Source of the DNA: Gammaproteobacteria bacterium
GTDB lineage: Bacteria; Pseudomonadota; Gammaproteobacteria; Pseudomonadales; Azotimanducaceae
DNA length: 49,531 nucleotides
Direction: 5' to 3'
NCBI GenBank assembly: GCA_027297435.1
Contig: JAPUIA010000266.1
Span: 1-49,531, forward strand
Under the pieces are notes generated by a model that was not told the DNA's origin, ran no database searches, and worked only from the letters and a program-made list of their open reading frames with translations. The translations under genes were made by a program, and so were the position numbers. Every line of letters starts with the position of its first letter. Within the stretch, counting starts at the first letter, position 1. This document shows, piece by piece, positions 1 through 32,672 of the stretch.

Positions 1-446
1 TTGCGGAGTGGCGCGCCAACACGGTCGGGTTCGTTTTTCAGTTCTACAACCTGCTGGGGGTGCTAACAGCCCTCGGTAACGTGGAACTGCCGCTGCTGTT
101 GACGCCGCTATCGAAAAAGCAACGGCATCAGCGTGCCATGCTGGCACTTTCCATTGTCGGTTTGACCGATCGGGCCAAGCATAAACCGGGAGAACTTTCC
201 GGCGGCCAACAACAGCGCGTCGCGATCGCTCGAGCGTTGGTTGCAGACCCTGCTTTGTTGGTGTGCGACGAACCAACCGGTGATCTCGACCGCAACACGG
301 CTGACGAAATCCTCGAGCTTCTGCAAATTCTCAACCGCGAATTCGGCAAAACGATCATCATGGTCACCCACGACGCAAAAGCTGCGGAGTACGCGCGATC
401 GGTTTTGCACATGGACAAGGGCAACCTGTTGGAGATTGCCGCATGA
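1..446 (+). CDS. ABC transporter ATP-binding protein, LolD/MacB type (3' part only)
   Basis: The reading frame is already open at the left edge (codons begin at base 3), so the N-terminus and Walker A lie outside. The visible part shows a Q-loop ([10 protein letters not shown]), the ABC signature [15 protein letters not shown], Walker B with catalytic Glu ([12 protein letters not shown]) and the switch His (MVTHD). This is the LolD/MacB/FtsE class of ATPase that pairs with FtsX-like permeases and drives lipoprotein release or mechanotransmission rather than classical import. The stop TGA overlaps the next start (ATGA at 443–446), so it is translationally coupled to the permease that follows. 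The substrate cannot be told from the sequence; a periplasmic adaptor gene upstream of the window would be expected if this is a tripartite exporter. Confidence 0.93.
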
Positions 447-1606
447 CCGCCTTGTCGCTTATCCGCACGGGCCTTTTTTCCAAGCCCACCAGAACCTCGC
501 TGACGTTTCTGTCGCTCTGTATCGCGTTCTTGCTGTTCATGTTGCTACAGGCGATCACCAGGGCTTTTGCGGGCGGTACTACCGTTCCCGGGGTGCAACG
601 CGTCATGACCGACGCGAAGTACTCCATGACCGACAACCTGCCGCTGTCTCACGTGCGGGCAATGGAGGAACTCGAAGGCGTCCGTGATGTTACCCAGATG
701 GTCTGGTTTGGCGGCTACTACCAAGATCCGAAAAACCAATTTGCGAAAGCACCCGTTGATCACACGCGCATTTTCTCGGTTTTCCCAGAACTGATCGTCA
801 GCGACACTGTGGTGGAGCGCTTTCACGCATCGAAAAGGGCGGTCGTCGTCGAGGCGGCTATGGCGCAGCAGTATGGTTGGCAAACCGGCGATGTCATTCC
901 GATCGCGGCCGATATCTGGCCCAGAGATGATGGCTCGTGGCATTGGGAGTTCATACTCGCCGGGACCTATCAGATTCCACCCGGTAGTCGTATCCAACCT
1001 TGGTTCTTCCTGCGCTGGGACTACTTCAACGAATCTGTTATGGATTGGGTAAAGAACCAGATCGGCTGGACGGTCTTGCGGGTGAACGATGGCGTCGAGC
1101 CAAAGACGGTGATCGACCGCATCGACGAACTTTTTGAGAACTCCTCGGATCCGACCAAGTCGCTCTCGGAAGATGAAATGGCTCGGCAGTTCGCCAACCA
1201 AATCGGCGACATGGGCGCAATCGCGACAATGATTCTAGCGGCGGTATTTTTCACCATCCTCTTGCTCACCGCGAACGTCGCGGCGTTGTCCTTTCGCGAG
1301 CGGGTCCCGGGTCTCGCGGTAATGAAGACTCTGGGCTTTCAGGACCGTTACGTCGCGATGCTGATTTTTGCGGAGAGCGCCGGTTTGTTCCTCGTCGGCG
1401 CGATCGGTGGAATTGCGGCTGGCTTCCTTCTAGAGCCAGTACTTCAAGAGAGTCTTGCTCCTGCGACGGGGCGTTTCCAAATGACGTGGCAAGACGCAGC
1501 ACTCGGAATGGTCCTTGCCAGCGGCCTTGCCGTCGCCATCGCGATTTATCCGACTTGGGCGGCCAACCGCTTGTCCATCGTGCAAGCACTCAGGGAGGTT
1601 AGCTAG
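443..1606 (+). CDS. FtsX/MacB-family ABC transporter permease (first of two)
   Basis: A 387-residue inner-membrane permease with MacB topology: one N-terminal membrane segment (about residues 15–40), a large periplasmic domain (about 45–255), then three C-terminal membrane segments (about 262–285, 310–335, 352–375) forming the FtsX domain with the conserved stretch around [13 protein letters not shown]. The ATG overlaps the ATPase stop. A strong Shine-Dalgarno-like AGGGAGG sits at its 3' end (1592–1598) but is now separated from the following permease gene by an inserted repeat. Its TAG stop (1604–1606) is also the first three bases of that repeat. Family assignment is firm; substrate is unknown. 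Confidence 0.9.
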
Positions 1607-1768
1607 TGCTTGTCCAGAATGCACAGCATTCTCGGACCGCGCCAGTGGAGGGCAGGGATGCCCGACCATAACGCGTAAAGAAAAATGCGAGGTTTTCGCA
1701 GAAAACCGACAGGGCAAATTCGCGGCGCCTGCGGTGAAATCAGGAGCCGAATTTCCGGAAAGGAACTA
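1604..1768 (+). mobile_element. Non-coding terminal-inverted-repeat element, copy 1 (165 bp)
   Basis: The left end reads TAGTGCTTGTCCAGAATGC; the right end read on the other strand is TAGTTCCTTTCCGGAAATTC, an imperfect terminal inverted repeat. A second copy lies at 29076–29171 on the opposite strand. The first 27 bases match at 26 positions and the last ~65 bases differ at only a few. This copy carries about 70 extra central bases with two small stems (GGGCA/TGCCC and TGCGA/TCGCA). There is no coding capacity, so it looks like a MITE. It supplies the TAG stop of the upstream permease, and its right end (AAAGGAA at 1759–1765) is now the Shine-Dalgarno of the downstream permease. Confidence 0.75.
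1759..1765 (+). promoter_or_regulatory. Ribosome binding site provided by the end of the inserted repeat
   Basis: AAAGGAA lies 6–7 bases before ATG 1772 and belongs to the right terminus of the inserted element. It decides the start of the second permease: the frame is open upstream to an ATG at 1685, but that extension lies wholly inside the repeat and gives a basic, non-membrane leader, whereas a start at 1772 gives a normal permease N-terminus. Confidence 0.6.
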
Positions 1769-1771
1769 AGT

Positions 1772-2923
1772 ATGTTGAAACAAACCATCGGCGTCATGGT
1801 CCTCAACTTCTCCAACCTCAGAAGCCGCAAGGCAGGCAGTGCTATTGTCGTCGTGGGCATTGGTGGTGTCGTAGCGGTGCTGTTGGGCTTACTTGCGATG
1901 TCGAGCGGATTCAAAGCGGTTCTTGTCGACACTGCCAAACCGGACAGAGCAATTATTGTGCGTAACGGCAGCAACGGCGAAATGGACGGGTGGATTAGTC
2001 GTCAAGAACTGGAGGTGCTCAAGAGCTTCGAGAGCTTGGACGTCGTCAGCGGTGAAACGTATGCCACCGTCACGGTCCTAAAACGCGATAGCGGTACGGC
2101 CGCGGATGCCATTGTGCGGGGGGTTACGAAAGACGCGTTCGAATTGCGGCCGGAAGTCGAGATCGTTGCCGGTCGAAAGTTTCAGCCCGGAAAATACGAA
2201 GCCATCGTGGGGGTGCAGGCAGCCCGGCAATACAAGGGGCTCAACGTTGGTGAAACCATCGACGTACGGCACGCGCGTTGGACGGTGGTCGGTCATTTCA
2301 GGGGCGCGGGTTCTTCTGTAGAGTCTGAGATCTGGGTCGACTTACCCGTTGCTCAGGATGTCTTTCGTCGCACCGACCTCAGCGTTGCACGCGTTCGCTT
2401 GCATCCCGACGCGATGGCGTCGACAAACCAAACGATCGCCAACGATCCGCGTGTTACGGGTGTGTTGATTCCAGAAACCCTGTTCTACGCATCTCAGGCA
2501 GCAGCGCGCGCGGGATTGATCGAGACGTTCGCCTACGTGATTGCGGGCATTATGGCTTTGGGTTCCGTTATCGCTGCTTTGAACACTATGTACACCGCTG
2601 TGAGCCGTCGAACGCTTGAAATAGCAACCTTGCGGGCGCTCGGCTTTAACAATTTTGCCGTCGTGACATCGGTCGTGGCTGAGGCAACCGTACTGGCAAC
2701 TTGTGGCGCGCTTATCGCAACACTCTTTGTTTACCTGGTTTTCGATGGTGTCGGCGCGTCGACCGTCAGTAGTGGTTCGCAGGTAGCCTTCGCCTTTCGG
2801 CTGACGCCAGATCTGATCATCACCGGACTAGGCTGGGCGCTTGCACTGGGTTGTGTCGGAGGCTTGTTGCCCGCCTATCGGGCCGCGCGATTGCCCATAA
2901 CCCAGGCTTTGCGAGGTGAGTAA
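1772..2923 (+). CDS. FtsX/MacB-family ABC transporter permease (second of two)
   Basis: A 383-residue permease starting MLKQTIGVMVLNFSNLRSRK. It has an N-terminal membrane segment (about 20–43), a periplasmic domain (about 50–250) and three C-terminal membrane segments (about 255–280, 300–330, 345–370), ending with the family-typical LPITQALRGE. It is the partner of the permease at 443–1606, so the transporter is probably a heterodimer driven by the ATPase at the left edge. The gene ends 14 bp from a convergent membrane-protein gene. Without the inserted repeat it would begin two bases after the preceding stop. Confidence 0.9.
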   Translation: MLKQTIGVMVLNFSNLRSRKAGSAIVVVGIGGVVAVLLGLLAMSSGFKAVLVDTAKPDRAIIVRNGSNGEMDGWISRQELEVLKSFESLDVVSGETYATVTVLKRDSGTAADAIVRGVTKDAFELRPEVEIVAGRKFQPGKYEAIVGVQAARQYKGLNVGETIDVRHARWTVVGHFRGAGSSVESEIWVDLPVAQDVFRRTDLSVARVRLHPDAMASTNQTIANDPRVTGVLIPETLFYASQAAARAGLIETFAYVIAGIMALGSVIAALNTMYTAVSRRTLEIATLRALGFNNFAVVTSVVAEATVLATCGALIATLFVYLVFDGVGASTVSSGSQVAFAFRLTPDLIITGLGWALALGCVGGLLPAYRAARLPITQALRGE

Positions 2924-16228: not shown

Positions 16229-16463
16229 GTGTCCTGTCCCACAAATAACTTCAACAATTCGCAGGTCTTTTTCGCTCCTGTCGGCGTTGCTCGTCCTTGT
16301 GTGGGGCCTACCACACGGCGTCCTCGGCAACCCAGAGGGTTGCTGGCAGTTTGCGGCTGTGCCGTGCTCAGCTAGCAAACTGCGTCGCGCCCCGGGGCGC
16401 GCCCTTGCCATGAACGAAAAATCCCGTGCGCCTCGTCCAACTTATTTGCGGGACAGGACACTA
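16229..16463. mobile_element. Structured inverted-repeat element between regulator and PepSY genes
   Basis: The ends are 23-base inverted repeats (16229–16251 and 16439–16461) matching at 21 positions; both begin GTGTCCTGTCCC. The interior has no sensible ORF but contains four exact stems: GTGTGG/CCACAC (16299–16316), GCAACCC/GGGTTGC with a 3-base loop (16327–16343), GCAGTTTGC/GCAAACTGC (16346–16383) and the 16-bp palindrome CGCGCCCCGGGGCGCG (16386–16401). Outer A/T-rich arms (TTTTTCG near 16268, CGAAAAA near 16415) also pair. It could be a MITE, a decayed insertion sequence or a structured RNA. Its right end supplies the TAG stop of the PepSY gene. Confidence 0.7.
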
Positions 16464-19148: not shown

Positions 19149-21959
19149 TTGAGAAGTTTTTTCGGATGCGTGCTCGGCGTCACGCTACTCGCCTCAGGTC
19201 TTGCCAGCTGCCAATCGGTGTTACGAAACGAGATCACCGCAACGCCACCGGTGATCGTATACAAGAGTCCCAACGACGATCGCGAGTATCGCTACCTGGA
19301 ACTCGACAACCATCTGAAGGTCTTGCTGGTATCGGATGCCAGGACCGACAAGGCGGCGGCGGCGTTGGTCGCGTTTCGCGGACAACACCACGATCCCGAG
19401 CAGTACGGGGGGCTTGCCCATTTCCTGGAACACATGCTTTTCATTGGGACCGAAAAGTACCCGAAAGTAGACGGCTACCAAACATTCGTCAGCACCCACG
19501 GGGGTTCATCCAACGCGTACACGGCCGCCGACCACACCAATTACTTCTTCGACATACAACCCGAGCACTTTCGGGCAGGCATGGATCGCTTCGCTCAGTT
19601 CTTCATCAGCCCTTTGTTCGACACCGGGTACGTCGAGCGGGAAAAGCACGCCGTGCACTCCGAAACCCAACTGCAGATAAAAGACGACCGGTGGCGCGCC
19701 ATGTCCGCTCAACGCATGGCGCTCAATCCGGATCATCCCGCCTCTCGATTCCACATTGGCAACTTGGAGACCTTGGGCGACGGCGTAGGTGAAGCGTTAG
19801 TGGAATTTTTCGAACGCAACTACTCCTCAGACCAGATGGCATTGGTCGCCATGAGCAACGAGAGTCTCGATGAACTCGAGACCTGGATCACGCCCATGTT
19901 CGAAGCACTGCCTAACCGTAATCTGGGTCCGGCACCCACAACACCCCCGCTGTTTCGAACCGATGACCTACCAGCTTCGTTGCGTCACAGACCACTCAAA
20001 GAATCACGCTCGATAACCTACAGCTTCCCGATACCGTCAGTCACCGAACACTACGCGAGCAAGCCTGAGGTGTATCTATCGAACCTTCTCGGACACGAAG
20101 GCGAGCACAGCCTACATCACGACCTGAAAAACCGGGGGTGGATCGAATCGCTGGGCGCGTCGGCCGGTCGCTTTGACGACGACACCGCGCTGGTGACGAT
20201 CGACATTGGCCTTACCGAGCCCGGCTTTGCCCACATCGACGACATCACCTCGGCTCTGTTCGCGTACGTTGACTTGTTGAAGGCCAATCCTCCGGAGGCT
20301 TGGCGTTACGCCGAACAAGCGAAAGTGGCGGAGCTGGGTTTTCGCTTTCAAGAACAGTCATCGGCCACGGCCTTCGTTTACTTGGTGTGTCCACGGCTCA
20401 GACTCTACCCGGCGACGGATGTATTGCGCGCGCCCCACATGATGGATCAATTCGTTCCGGAGCTGATTGATCGCTACCTCGGCTACCTCAGACCCGACAA
20501 TGTGCTGCTCGAAATCGTTGCGCCAGAAGTTTCCACCGATCAGGTAGAGCGGTTCTTCCAAGTGCCCTATGCGTTGCAACGCGGGCCGCTGGAACTCGCC
20601 GAGCGAACGGACCATGACTTCAGGCTGCCGGATCCCAACACTTTCCTGCCCGACAGCCTGGATCTTAAAGCCCGCGATTCCGAACCGCCGCGCCGGGTAA
20701 TCAAGACGCAAGTAGGCGAAGTTTGGGTAGATACCGATATGGAGTTCGGAACCCCTCGAGCAAACCTGAATTTGACCCTGACCGTGGCGGGGGGGATGCA
20801 GTCGCTGGACGACGTCGTGGCCGCGCGTATCTATAAGCAGCTCGTGCAGGACGAACTCAACGTGTTCACCTACCCCGCCTACCTCGCGGGATTGAACTAC
20901 AGCTTGGCCGTCGTGCCGGCCGGCTTTCGCATCAGCTTGAACGGCTATTCCGACAAGCAAGGGGTGTTGCTCGACGCGGTTCTCGATGCCTTTAGAAATA
21001 CCGAGATCGACGCCGAGCGTTTCGACCGGTACCGCCGCGAACTGACGCGCAACTGGCGCAACTTCAAGAACGAGAGACCCTACTCGCAAGTTTACGCGTC
21101 GCTCAGTCATTTGCTGGTCAGCAATAGCTGGCCGCCTGAACGGTTGGCCGATACGCTGGATACTTTGACGGTCGAAGATCTCGTGCGCTGGCGGCGCTCA
21201 CGCTTGAACGAGCATGGACTTTTGGCTCTGTTGCATGGCAACGTCGATGCGACCGACGCCTCACGCCTAACCGCGACGGTAACCAAACACCTGCAGCTGG
21301 GCGATATCCCACCCCGAAAACCGGACATCGCTCAGATCACCGGCAACTTCCGCGTACCAGTAGACGTCGACCACAACGACGCTTCGATGGTGCTGTTCGT
21401 CCAGGACACAACGGCGGGACTGCGCTCTCGCGCCAAAAGTGCCTTGGCGGCACAGCTGATGCGTCAGTCGTACTTCACCGAACTGCGCACAGAACAACAG
21501 CTCGGCTATGTGGTGTCGTTGGCCAACAGCACGTTTCGCGATCAAGCGGGCGTGGCCTTCATCATCCAAAGCCCCGTGGCGTCACCCAAAGCCCTCGAGC
21601 TGGCGACCCATCGATTTCTGGATGGACAAGCGTCGGCGATCGCCAACCTGCCGGCCGCTACCTTCGATGCGCAAAAAGCGGGACTGATTGCCCGTCTGAC
21701 CGAACGCGACAAAAACTTGGGTGAGCGAACGCGACGCTTGTGGATCGATCTTGATCTAGGCAACACCGCTTTCGACTCACGCTTGAAGATCGCCGAGTTC
21801 GTCGAGGCAATCGACCGAGAGGAGCTGGTTGAATTCGTCGAGACGTTGAAGACCCGGGCTCGCGAGCAACGCGTGATCCTCTACAGCACCGGTCAGTTTG
21901 ACGAGGCCCCTGGGGCGGGTGAGCTGATCACCGACCTGACGACGTGGAAAGACCGGTAG
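19149..21959 (+). CDS. M16-family zinc metallopeptidase (pitrilysin/insulysin type), lipoprotein
   Basis: 936 residues from TTG 19149, behind AGGA. This start gives a lipoprotein signal (MRSFFGCVLGVTLLASGLAS then Cys 21, lipobox LASC). The zinc motif is HFLEH (His 91, Glu 94, His 95; inverted HxxEH) with the third ligand region in HAVHSETQLQIKDD. Four M16 half-domains follow in the full-length insulysin/protease III pattern, including the C-terminal TELRTEQQLGYVVSLANSTF. It should degrade peptides in a closed chamber. Protease III of E. coli is a soluble periplasmic enzyme, so lipid anchoring is a difference. Confidence 0.92.
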   Translation: MRSFFGCVLGVTLLASGLASCQSVLRNEITATPPVIVYKSPNDDREYRYLELDNHLKVLLVSDARTDKAAAALVAFRGQHHDPEQYGGLAHFLEHMLFIGTEKYPKVDGYQTFVSTHGGSSNAYTAADHTNYFFDIQPEHFRAGMDRFAQFFISPLFDTGYVEREKHAVHSETQLQIKDDRWRAMSAQRMALNPDHPASRFHIGNLETLGDGVGEALVEFFERNYSSDQMALVAMSNESLDELETWITPMFEALPNRNLGPAPTTPPLFRTDDLPASLRHRPLKESRSITYSFPIPSVTEHYASKPEVYLSNLLGHEGEHSLHHDLKNRGWIESLGASAGRFDDDTALVTIDIGLTEPGFAHIDDITSALFAYVDLLKANPPEAWRYAEQAKVAELGFRFQEQSSATAFVYLVCPRLRLYPATDVLRAPHMMDQFVPELIDRYLGYLRPDNVLLEIVAPEVSTDQVERFFQVPYALQRGPLELAERTDHDFRLPDPNTFLPDSLDLKARDSEPPRRVIKTQVGEVWVDTDMEFGTPRANLNLTLTVAGGMQSLDDVVAARIYKQLVQDELNVFTYPAYLAGLNYSLAVVPAGFRISLNGYSDKQGVLLDAVLDAFRNTEIDAERFDRYRRELTRNWRNFKNERPYSQVYASLSHLLVSNSWPPERLADTLDTLTVEDLVRWRRSRLNEHGLLALLHGNVDATDASRLTATVTKHLQLGDIPPRKPDIAQITGNFRVPVDVDHNDASMVLFVQDTTAGLRSRAKSALAAQLMRQSYFTELRTEQQLGYVVSLANSTFRDQAGVAFIIQSPVASPKALELATHRFLDGQASAIANLPAATFDAQKAGLIARLTERDKNLGERTRRLWIDLDLGNTAFDSRLKIAEFVEAIDREELVEFVETLKTRAREQRVILYSTGQFDEAPGAGELITDLTTWKDR

Positions 21960-22042
21960 GAGGCGGCTGCGCGTCCAAAGGACGCGACGCCGCGATGTAG
22001 GCCGTTGATTTTTAGAAATAAATCGCGGCTAAAGCCGCTTGT
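21957..22042. repeat. REP-like palindrome pair between convergent genes
   Basis: Unit 1 starts GTAGGAGGCGGCTG and folds as GCGGC…CGCGTCC-AAA-GGACGCG…GCCGC (21963–21993). Unit 2 in opposite orientation is TCGCGGCTAAAGCCGCTTGT (GCGGCT/AGCCGC at 22025–22038). The paired, inverted layout is that of a BIME. They lie between the ends of the protease and dinG genes and may protect or terminate both transcripts. Unit 1 has a relative at 28034–28073. Confidence 0.7.
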
Positions 22043-28026: not shown

Positions 28027-28033
28027 CTATACC

Positions 28034-28073
28034 GCGGAGCCCCGTCCCGAGGACGGGCAGCCGCCTCCTACGC
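28034..28073. repeat. REP-like hairpin between zipA and ligA
   Basis: On the minus strand it begins GTAGGAGGCGGCTG, as at 21957. The stem is CCCGTCC-CGA-GGACGGG (28041–28057) with outer GCGG/CCGC arms (28034–28037 and 28061–28064). It lies in the 67-bp gap just upstream of ligA and could uncouple ligA from zipA expression. Confidence 0.7.
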
Positions 28074-29008: not shown

Positions 29009-29075
29009 TTGAGGCTCCTCGACGGCATATTGCCGCCAGCCACTTCTGTCAATTCACGCGCACGCGCCACTTAAC

Positions 29076-29171
29076 TAGTTCCTGTCCGGAAATTCGGCTC
29101 CTGATTTCGCCGCAGGCGCCGCGAATTTTACTCTGTCGGTTCACAATGCTGCGCATTCTGGACAAGCACTA
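29076..29171 (-). mobile_element. Non-coding terminal-inverted-repeat element, copy 2 (96 bp)
   Basis: On the minus strand the left end reads TAGTGCTTGTCCAGAATGC and the right end is TCCGGACAGGAACTA; the two are imperfect inverted repeats, and the sequence matches copy 1 (1604–1768) apart from a ~70-base central gap. TAACTAG stands at both edges (29072–29078 and 29170–29176), which looks like a 7-bp target duplication. The TAG at 29171–29169 is the smc stop codon. Taking out the element and one repeat restores a TAA stop at the same place. Confidence 0.78.
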
Positions 29172-32100
29172 ACTAGCCGCCATCGCGGCAGCCTCTTCTA
29201 CGTCCACCGAAACCAAGCGCGAAACGCCCGGTTCGTTCATTGTGACGCCCATCAAGTGATCGGCGGTCTCCATCGTTATCTTGTTGTGTGTGATGACGAC
29301 AAACTGTACATCAGCGGACATTTCTTGAATCAACTCAGCAAAGCGTGTGACATTCGTATCGTCTAGAGGCGCATCGACCTCGTCCAACAGGCACACCGGA
29401 CTTGGGTTGAGCTGGAAGATGGCGAAGATCAGCGCTATCGCTGTCATTGCCTTCTCGCCACCCGACAACGACTGAACGCTTGCGTTGCGTTTTCCCGGCG
29501 GTCTCGCCATGAGCGTGACGCCGGTGTCAAGTAGGTCCTCCCCTGTCAGTTCCAAGTAAGCGTGCCCCCCGCCAAATACCTTCGGGAACAGCGCCCCCAA
29601 GTGTGCGTTGACCGCATCAAAGGTTTGCTTGAAGCGCGCACGCGTCTCCTTATCGATGCGCCTGATGGCTGTCGACAAGGTGTCCAACGCCTTTGCTAAA
29701 TCTTCGTGTTGGGCATCGAGGTAGGTTTTTCGCTCGGACTGCGCCTCATACTCCTCTATGGCCGCCAGATTGATAGCACCGAGGCGCTGTATGCGACGGT
29801 CGATGCGTTCCAGCTGTTCCGACCAGCCCGCATCGGTTGCATCTTCGGGCAATCCGCATCGCACCGCGTCCAGCTCGTGGCCCGTCTGAACGACTTGCTG
29901 CTTGATGTTAGCCTCCTGGACGTTGAGCCCCTGACGCTCTACCCGAACCGTTTCGAGCTTGGTACGAACGGCGTCGACGAGCCCTTCCGCTTCGCCGCGT
30001 TGACCTTCTTGCTCGCGGATGGTTTGGTCCAGCTGTTCCAACCGGCTACGCACGTCACCCAGCTGGCGCTCTACTGCCAAACGTTCCGCAAGCTTGGATT
30101 CCAACTCGACTTGCAACCGCGGTAGTGGCGTCGCGCTCGCTTCAATACCTCGTTCGAGCGCATGTTTGCGCTCTGACAGCTCTTGTTGTTGGTTGATCAA
30201 TCGCTCGTGGGCTGTCTCGCTGGCTTCGAGACGCGAAGCGAGGCTTTGGCGGGTCGAGTTCAAAGCGTGATACCGATCGTGAATGGAGCGGGCGGCAGGG
30301 CGAGCGACATCGAGTGCGGCGAGCATCTGATCTTTGGCTTCGACCAACTGCCGACGCTCTTGCACCTCGCTCTCACGGGCGTGTTCGGCTTGGCCCAAGG
30401 CAACTCTTGCGTCCGACAACTGTGCGGATTCTTGAACGATCTGAGATTCGATGTCCTGACGATCCCGGCTCAGCCGGTCGCGCCGCGCATCCGCCTCATC
30501 AAGCTGCACTTGGCGAACACCGTGATCGGCTTTTAGCTCACCCAACACCTTGTTGAGTAGAATCACCTTGGCCTGAAGGGTCTCTCGCTCTTGCTCGAGC
30601 ACGTTGATTCGCTCACGACCCTCGACCACATGATTTTGCAGTTCGGCGAGGGTGCGTTCCGCTTCCTCCACCCTGAGGTTCAATGTCTCGACCTCCTGCG
30701 CACGCTGAATGATCCCGGCATCTTCGGCGACGGCCGGGAGTTTACGCATCCAATCAGGGCCAACCCAAAAACCTTCGCGCGTAATGATGCTCTCTCCGGG
30801 CTTGAGCCCCGTGCGGGTCGCCAGCGCAACTGCTGCCGATTCGGCGGCGAATACGCCGTGCAAAATGGAACCGAGTTTCAAATCGTCGCTGCGCACCAAC
30901 GATACCAAGCTAGGCAGTTCGCCGCGTACGCTTGAATCGATGCGCGCCTCGACCAAGGCCACGTGGCCGTCGGCAAAGTCGGCCAACGCTTCGGCATAAC
31001 TCGCCACGTCATCTACCCGCAAACTTTGCAGAAACTCACCGAGCACCGATTCGACGGCGCGCTCCCAACCGGGTACCACGCTGAGCGTCTCGCCGAGCCG
31101 CTCGGATCCTTGCAGGTCGTTGTCCGTCAGCCATTGCTCGACCGCCTCGTCCGAGCGGCCCAACGCTGCGCGCTGCACGGCCTGTAAGTTCGCGAGATCG
31201 TGACGCAGGGCGTGTACCTCGTTACGCGCCTCTTCCAACACATTTTCGCGCATCAGCACGTCTTCGCGCGCCGACGCCAGGTTCGTCAAACCGCGATCGA
31301 TATCGCCCTCGGCCGCCAGTTGTTGGCGCTGATGGGTCTCGATCTCCTCGGCCAAAGTGTGCACGTGATCGCTTTTGATGCTCACGCCGGTTTGCGATTC
31401 CTCTTCGAGCTGGTTGAGCCGCGTGCGCAACCTTTGTATGAGTTGCATGAGGTGATCGATACGCGACGACTGAACCTGGGCTTCGCGTTCATTGTCCGCC
31501 GCGCGTTTGGTGAAGATATCCCAGTCGTCCTGCCATTGCCGGTAGCCTTCCTCTAGTCCCACAAGCGCGTCACTCGCGGTACGATCTTCGAGTTCCGCTG
31601 CCACCAGCTGAGGCACCAATTCCGCAATCTCGTCGTGCAGTGCACTGATCTGGGCTTCGTCCATCGTCAACTGACGATTGGTCTCCTCATTGCGCTGGCG
31701 CACGCCGTCCAGGTCGAGCTCCAACTCCTTTACACGTTCTTGATTGAACTGAATCGCTTCCTCGACGCGGGCGATGTCGGCGCCCAGCTGATAGTAACGA
31801 CCCTGAACGTCGTTGAACTCATCACTCGTTTCACCGTGACGGGTTCGGGATTTCTCAATCTCGAGATCATGGGCGCGCTGCGCGGCTTGCACCCGTTCTA
31901 GCTCCACCTCGAGCCGGCGAAGGTTCTCCTGCAGTGCATCGAGCTCGCTCGAGAGTGCCATATGGCGGATCGTGTACAACTGGGCGGTGCGCAGCTTTTC
32001 TTCCTCTTTGAGCACGGCATAGCGTTGCGCCGCCTTGGCTTGGCGTTGCAATCGATTCAGCTGTTGACCGAGCTCATCACGAATGTCCTGCAAGCGTTCC

Positions 32101-32672
32101 AAGTTTTCTCTGGTGTGTTTGATCCGGTTGGTGGTCTCGCGGCGGCGTTCCTTGTACTTGGAAATACCCGCCGCTTCCTCCAGGTAGACCCTCAGCTCTT
32201 CGGGCCTGGCGTCGACGAGTTGACCGATCATGCCTTGCTCGATGATCGAGTAGCTGCGCGGGCCGAAACCGGTACCGAGAAATATGTCGGCAATGTCGCG
32301 ACGCCGGCACTTGCTGCCGTTCAGGAAGTAAGCGGATTGCGAATCGCGTGTCACTTGGCGGCGGATGGCAATTTCTGCATACGCTGCGTAGGCCCCGCCG
32401 ATGCGACCATCGGAATTGTCGAATACCAGCTCGATGCTGGCTACGGCAGTGGGTTTCCGCGAGCTGGAGCCGTTGAAGATGACATCGGTGAGGTTCTCAC
32501 CCCTGAGTTGCTTGGCAGAGCTTTCACCCATCACCCAACGAACCGCATCGATGATGTTGGACTTACCGCATCCGTTAGGACCTACGACAGCACAGCGATT
32601 CCCAGGGAGGTTGACCGTTGTCGGATCGACAAATGATTTGAAACCTGCAAGCTTGATCTGCTTTAGGCGCAT
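29169..32672 (-). CDS. smc: Chromosome segregation protein SMC
   Basis: 1167 residues with full SMC architecture: N-terminal head with Walker A ([15 protein letters not shown]), a long coiled coil (about 170–500), hinge (about 505–680, with GREG/HGVF-like glycine turns), returning coil (about 680–1010) and C-terminal head with signature [17 protein letters not shown] and Walker [14 protein letters not shown]. It forms condensin-like rings for chromosome organisation. It heads the smc–zipA–ligA run; ATG 32672 has AAGGA at the right distance. The TAG stop is shared with the inserted repeat. The 243 bp upstream (32673–32915) show no promoter I trust, only a weak AGCGCC/GGCGC stem. Confidence 0.97.

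Follow-up and report, generated by a model that had tools for sequence, protein, structure and literature searches.

A MITE-like repeat between two permease genes, with a TAG-containing palindromic target and copies often placed at stop codons

Small dispersed repeats that meet the 3′ ends of bacterial genes have been described before. In pneumococcus, BOX elements overlap 58 CDSs, 36 of them at the extreme 3′ end, where BOX encodes the stop codon, and the sections of that report available to us state that there is no strong evidence of truncation (PMC3049150). Likewise, the Coxiella burnetii MITE known as QMITE2 measures about 190 bp and carries terminal inverted repeats together with 7–9 bp direct repeats, and its C-terminal overlaps of 1–10 bp are listed for five genes (PMC5896051). 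REP/BIME, ERIC and Correia elements are also small repeats that may sit in operons and affect transcripts (PMC3049150 and, in part, general background). The accessible part of PMC3119063 describes no stop-codon target, and in a literature search, which was not exhaustive, no element of this kind turned up with a palindromic target that contains a stop.

Here we describe a repeat in a 49,531-nt stretch of gammaproteobacterial DNA (the window), in which an ABC ATPase fragment is followed by permease 1 and then permease 2. Positions 1599–1773, where the two permease genes meet, hold one copy of a dispersed repeat with 13-bp inverted ends. We consider it highly likely that this feature is a copy of a MITE-like non-autonomous transposon, and that a TAG-containing palindromic target together with selection places its copies at stop codons. 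The features of the junction are as follows.

443–1606, plus strand: permease 1 gene (FtsX-like), an open reading frame with Pfam FtsX (PF02687) and stop TAG at 1604–1606
1592–1598, plus strand: the sequence AGGGAGG, 173 nt from the permease 2 ATG
1599–1606, plus strand: left target copy TTAGCTAG, whose final three bases are the permease 1 stop
1607–1765, plus strand: element proper, 159 bp, delimited from aligned copies; no called gene overlaps it
1607–1619, plus strand: left terminal inverted repeat TGCTTGTCCAGAA
1753–1765, minus strand: right terminal inverted repeat TTCCTTTCCGGAA, as read on the minus strand, matching the left one at 9/13 positions
1759–1765, plus strand: AAAGGAA at the right element end, 6 nt before the ATG, a putative Shine-Dalgarno sequence
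1766–1773, plus strand: right target copy CTAAGTAT, 4/8 like the left copy and overlapping the permease 2 ATG
1772–2923, plus strand: permease 2 gene (MacB_PCD and FtsX by Pfam), with homologues aligning from the residue at 1772

The stop-to-start gap of the permease pair is 165 nt in the window. In 24 of 27 relative loci it is −4 to 19 nt, with gaps of 85, 88 and 114 nt in the remaining three and a median of 5 across all 27. This set derives from 30 loci, less two that lacked permease 1 and the window itself; starts were extrapolated where a match began after the first residue, and the empty form of the junction is that suggested by relatives of about 30–57% protein identity. As the permease genes are nearly adjacent in these relatives, the 165-nt spacer is a derived state, which bears out the proposal of a first-pass annotation that an insertion had occurred in an operon junction at a stop codon. 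The printed tails of permease 1 homologues stop within about two residues of its end. Upstream of 1772 the permease 2 frame stays open as far as an ATG within the element, at 1685 (ORF 1685–2923), which would add 29 residues; a start at this position is possible, and homologues favour 1772.

That the spacer is a dispersed repeat, also proposed initially, is confirmed by 28 matches at E ≤ 0.001 in the host genome (a 311-contig draft of 4.22 Mb). Besides the window copy, nine of these cover 118–163 bases at 74–88% identity, and the rest are shorter. An alignment of thirteen copies, some near-full and others with internal deletions, shows the ends to be conserved, and the 13-bp inverted ends have the consensus T[T/G]C[C/T]TGTCC[A/G]GAA. 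A second, internally deleted copy lies within the window itself.

29071–29078: target copy TTAACTAG of the second element
29079–29168, minus strand: second element, internally deleted, 90 bp
29169–29176: target copy CTAACTAG of the second element, 7/8 like TTAACTAG, in which CTA is the smc stop TAG on the minus strand
29169–32672, minus strand: smc gene (ORF; TIGR02168), whose stop codon lies inside the second-element target

With respect to distribution, the element consensus was matched in 5 of 97 genomes, host included (E ≤ 1e-5, with at most eight candidates scored per genome). Of 390 genomes drawn from the order, 3 contain the exact pattern TAGTTCYTGTCCRGAA, with six sites in the host and one in each of two others; the draw left out the genomes G012, G025, G038 and G055. 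A search for the ends alone, allowing up to two mismatches, revealed a broader family with diverse interiors. Specifically, end-pattern matches relative to the reversed control numbered 234 versus 9 in G012, 107 versus 13 in G038, 51 versus 8 in G055, 31 versus 8 in G025, 51 versus 22 in the host and 15 versus 12 in G037. Regions examined for ends comprised 20 from the host and 100 more, hand-picked among the matches listed (40 from G012, 20 each from G038 and G055, 14 from G025, one from G037 and five wider regions of the host), so that the 234 G012 and 107 G038 matches are represented by those inside the 40 and 20 regions, respectively. These regions, the window and loci from the homology search of the host genome yielded 63 inward-facing pairs of TAGTKCYTGTCCRGAA-like ends, 30–450 bp long, which provide the terminal inverted repeats characteristic of MITEs. 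The elements are also short and non-coding (96–293 bp between pattern ends in 56 elements, with a single called gene overlapping, by 36 bp at its 5′ end) and dispersed in multiple copies, with empty sites found only in diverged relatives.

Several arrangements of these copies stand out. Two copies (L009 and L010, on C239 and C113) have near-identical flanks on both sides, which points to a duplicated or misassembled segment. At positions 1552–1844 of L091 (host C117), two tandem elements lie at a yggS stop, with CTAGTTAG at the outer edges and at the middle junction. A mini-element of 20 bp, TTCCCGATTCTAGACAGGAA, consisting of almost only the two ends, sits between CTAGCTAG and CTAGCTAA at about 2277–2312 of L243 (G055 C183), and also occurs in L132.

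Comparison of the element flanks identified the length of the target. Direct duplication of the flanks at 8 bp exceeded shuffled pairing by 41.6 matches across 55 elements, versus −2.9 to +9.9 at 2–7 and 9–12 bp. The constant-length target duplication of a MITE is therefore found at 8 bp across copies, the window copy alone agreeing at only 4/8. A 2-bp (TA) duplication, as implied by the join in the first-pass annotation, showed no excess at 2 bp and was rejected. The target consensus is the palindrome CTAGCTAG, with C or T at the fifth base; the strongest duplication signal comes from its two central positions, and in the 55 elements the bases beyond the 8 bp show no clear preference. Target pairs identical at 8/8 positions include CTAGTTAG, CTAGCTAG and CTAATTAG. 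With so specific a target, copies paired at random already agree at about 5/8 positions. The 55 pairs were drawn from the 63 by dropping five shorter than 90 bp, the outer pair in two nested cases and one lacking a flank, and they still included L182, a duplicate of the L179 locus. As the collecting pattern contained TAG, the three target bases beside each end are biased and the others are not. Given an 8-bp flank duplication with a shared consensus, the TAG and CTA at the element ends are target sequence, and an element-encoded stop was rejected on this ground. Target-like sites are also depleted in genes: 53 of 123 sites with a target score of at least 5 are coding, versus 425,322 of 492,418 positions overall.

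At the window copy, the flanks joined without the element give AGGGAGGTTAGCTAAGTATGTTG, as initially written, and this join reads GAGG TTAGCTAA GTATG, in which the palindrome TTAGCTAA is a good target. We infer that TTAGCTAA was the original target and that the right copy has probably since been shortened by 4 bp. Such a loss from the right TTAGCTAA copy would leave CTAA, with AGGA then 7 nt from the ATG. Permease 1 does end in the TAG at 1604–1606, as had been claimed, and this TAG is part of the 8-bp target rather than the start of the element. Nor does the element ‘repair’ the stop, as the same annotation suggested; the stop lies within the 8 bp of target that become duplicated when the element inserts, and consequently it is not lost.

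The first-pass annotation had made its reading depend on a preference for stop codons across copies, and this preference was observed. Among 55 distinct elements from six genomes, 32 have a target overlapped by the stop of a neighbouring gene, versus 13.6 (24.8%) expected from score-matched non-coding sites, and none of 200,000 simulations reached as high a count. For reference, the stop share is 6.2% at random non-coding positions and 14–33% at target-like non-coding positions (score thresholds 2 to 8), the score-matched background containing few high-scoring sites (10 at a score of at least 7). Elements at a stop number 9/17 in the host, 10/20 in G012 (a duplicate included), 6/11 in G038, 4/5 in G055, 2/2 in G025 and 1/1 in G037. 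Of the 32, 17 lie at co-directional junctions, 11 at convergent ones and four where the contig holds no second gene. Counted by gene ends (56 elements, using the outer of each nested pair; removal of L182 leaves the 55 above), 34 of 60 neighbouring 3′ ends have a stop codon that overlaps the target. As many as 31 of these 34 fall at the two TAG positions of the target (19 at distance 0 and 12 at distance 4), the others lying at distance 5 (one) or 7 (two), with none at 1–3, 6 or 8–11. TAG is the stop in 29 of the 34 overlapping cases, versus 147 of 383 called genes. Gene calls were made with a codon-usage caller written for this analysis. In a sample collected by homology only, without requiring TAG, half of the distinct copies (6 of 12) lie at a stop, leaving out L010 as a duplicate and L012 and L015 onward as partial copies.

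The excess of 32 over the 13.6 expected from the target word is what would be predicted if the transposase or a partner recognised gene ends themselves, for example through the termination complex or the transcript end, beyond the 8-bp word. We consider such active targeting unlikely, however, as there is no clear preference outside the 8 bp, and no new mechanism is needed for the excess when purifying selection acts against insertions elsewhere. The question of safe sites is testable, since the contributions of target word and selection can be separated using unoccupied target words, a comparison started in this analysis.

In a different account, insertion near gene ends would be random and would cut off the final codons, with the TAG of the target or element end providing a new stop. 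Whatever its origin, an open frame running into an end rich in TAG will stop there, and in one Coxiella strain EnhC is extended by a QMITE2 copy, according to the available part of that report (PMC5896051). Truncation, however, predicts that about one third of cases would read into the element in the third frame, and no called gene reads into an element at its 3′ end. Profile alignments are also informative in this regard. Thirty-six proteins lie within 12 bp of an element, and NCBIfam profiles were run on 30 of them. Alignments above curated cut-offs extend to or near the profile end at the protein terminus for YggS (229/229), ArgH (454/455), TrmB (192/194), PgeF (222/223), DegP-like (433/434) and NudE (181/186), as well as SMC (TIGR02168, 1181/1181 at residue 824 of the 833 submitted). 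Below the curated cut-offs, MoaD reaches 80/80 at residue 91 of 91 (65.4 bits, cut-off 66.15), and COX3 (189/190) and the DMSO reductase gamma subunit (206/206) reach the profile end. In all, these ten named proteins end within five positions of the profile end. RuvX (101/130), CvpA-like (142/162) and GlpD-like (440/508) proteins fall short of the ends of their best profiles, as truncation would have it. Five of the 30 proteins (L270, L178, L184, L212 and L213) match no NCBIfam family at 1e-8, and several more hit just distant or internal profiles that are uninformative on the C-terminus.

MoaD requires a terminal Gly-Gly. The GG is retained here, with the stop TAG inside the target, and at all 28 relative loci that have moaE in place the protein ends at the equivalent residue (26 alignments run to residue 91, and two to residues 88 and 89, with 3 and 2 more residues, respectively). 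The moaD–moaE gap is 174 nt here, versus at most 41 nt in 25 of these 28 relatives; the other three have gaps of 145, 156 and 166 nt, in which no such ends were seen by eye. Gaps between yggS and proC range from −13 to 287 nt in 29 relatives, so this junction is not a clean empty-site case. Junctions were read at 30 loci each of 38 moaD and 41 yggS matches, one moaD locus lacking moaE. Separately, congeners without an element match have spacers of about 100–290 nt at L274 and L275 (moaD–moaE) and at L307–L310 and L317 (yggS–proC), the L308 spacer consisting of GC-rich tandem repeats. Taken together, the lack of read-in and the profiles that end with their proteins indicate insertion at real stops rather than truncation. 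C-terminal truncation is accordingly rejected on the read-in, the profile ends and the MoaD relatives; that account is largely contradicted, and we regard it as highly improbable.

In terms of translation of the downstream gene, the AGGGAGG at 1592–1598 is probably the original Shine-Dalgarno sequence of permease 2, now stranded upstream, and from its position the element end AAAGGAA plausibly serves as the present one. The suggestion that the element supplies a Shine-Dalgarno sequence is thus plausible at the window copy and does not extend to copies in general: a called start lies 6–8 nt past an AGGA-bearing end in only 3 of 55 (the window, L272 and L213). Judged from these spacings, Shine-Dalgarno supply is an occasional by-product rather than a general feature of the copies.

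The RNA of 1592–1775 folds better than its shuffles (z −2.73), and the family-A core has the same orientation to transcription in 8 of 10 copies at co-directional junctions. Both observations would fit a host-useful 3′ element, such as mRNA-stabilising hairpins or a terminator, that is retained at gene ends. Terminator-like hairpins on either strand are present, however, in just 19 of 55 elements, and the distribution is patchy, with none of eight congeners matched by the element consensus (E ≤ 1e-5, at most eight candidates scored per genome). We therefore think it improbable that usefulness to the host accounts for the placement. Within the permease junction, a scan gave two terminator-like hairpins, both on the strand opposite the operon; the operon strand itself had none, and no sigma-70-like promoter was detected. 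Rfam 15 models gave no match at gathering score anywhere in the window, and a known structured RNA family was rejected as an identity for the element.

Returning to a MITE-like transposon directed by its target, we envisage mobilisation in trans by a transposase that would recognise the 13-bp inverted ends and make cuts in the target staggered by 8 bp. The preferred target CTAGCTAG presents TAG on both strands, at two offsets; as this word is rich in TAG and depleted inside genes, gene ends offer it mostly at TAG stops. Duplication of the target leaves the upstream gene with its own stop and, it appears, at full length. Selection would then purge insertions in coding sequences or promoters, raising the share at stops. 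Between co-directional genes, the element would become a transcribed spacer, and where the next start lies 6–8 nt past its end, the AGGA of the inverted repeat may replace the Shine-Dalgarno sequence, permease 2 being an example. The window copy illustrates how an operon can take in a mobile element with both reading frames unbroken, sometimes lending what may be a ribosome-binding site.

Candidate sources of transposition were sought in five draft genomes. Transposase family PF01609 has six matches in four of the five, and the end-like sequences nearby all have at least 4 mismatches in 16; PF12762 has no match in the five. No autonomous partner was found among long inward-facing end pairs in the loci examined (450–6000 bp, target copies at least 6/8 alike). 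The sole long pairs were two neighbouring elements in L202 and one pair in L088, which by eye encloses an EngB-like GTPase gene and a cytochrome c gene.

As a more tentative extension, which we rate as possible and somewhat doubtful, the family may have evolved a stop-shaped specificity that combines an AGGA for the next gene with a palindromic target reading TAG on either strand and a duplication by which the stop is preserved. If true, this would amount to a ‘safe-harbour’ strategy inside the operons of compact genomes, perhaps common to a second repeat family (family B) with other ends. Family B repeats in the host (L017–L025 and L028) have a hairpin core in common with the window element and differ in their ends, TAGAAGCGGTCTC and TACAACCGATCTC. 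Across ten loci, two of them unplaceable, the neighbouring called gene stops at the first TAG in L020 and L022, and a gene ends 3 nt before that TAG in L019 and L028. The window contains further repeats. A different element-like stretch at 16229–16461 has inverted arms GTGTCCTGTCCC...GGGACAGGACAC followed by TAACG, and positions 21956–22000 and 28027–28071 form an inverted pair of 45-nt sequences starting GTAGGAGGCGGCTGCGC, which we take to resemble GTAG-type REP palindromes.

Relative to the systems described at the outset, small repeats that overlap stop codons are already known in BOX and QMITE2. BOX resembles the window element as a small dispersed repeat at gene 3′ ends; it differs in its hosts and its modular build, on a comparison by description without sequences, and the available sections describe no palindromic stop-containing target (PMC3049150). 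QMITE2 shares a gammaproteobacterial host, inverted ends and short C-terminal overlaps, whereas its direct repeats are, again by description, unique to each copy rather than the shared CTAGCTAG seen here (PMC5896051). MITEAba12 is likewise small and non-autonomous, with inverted ends and a fixed target duplication; its 9-bp duplications, however, show no sequence trend and are attributed to ISAba12, and the accessible text describes no stop preference (PMC6382973). REP/BIME, ERIC and Correia elements are defined by other sequences, and the window has no Rfam match. The palindromic-target explanation is sharper than the BOX and QMITE2 precedents as far as the available sections describe them, in that a TAG palindrome gives a simple molecular reason for repeats that end exactly at stops, a pattern reported there without one.
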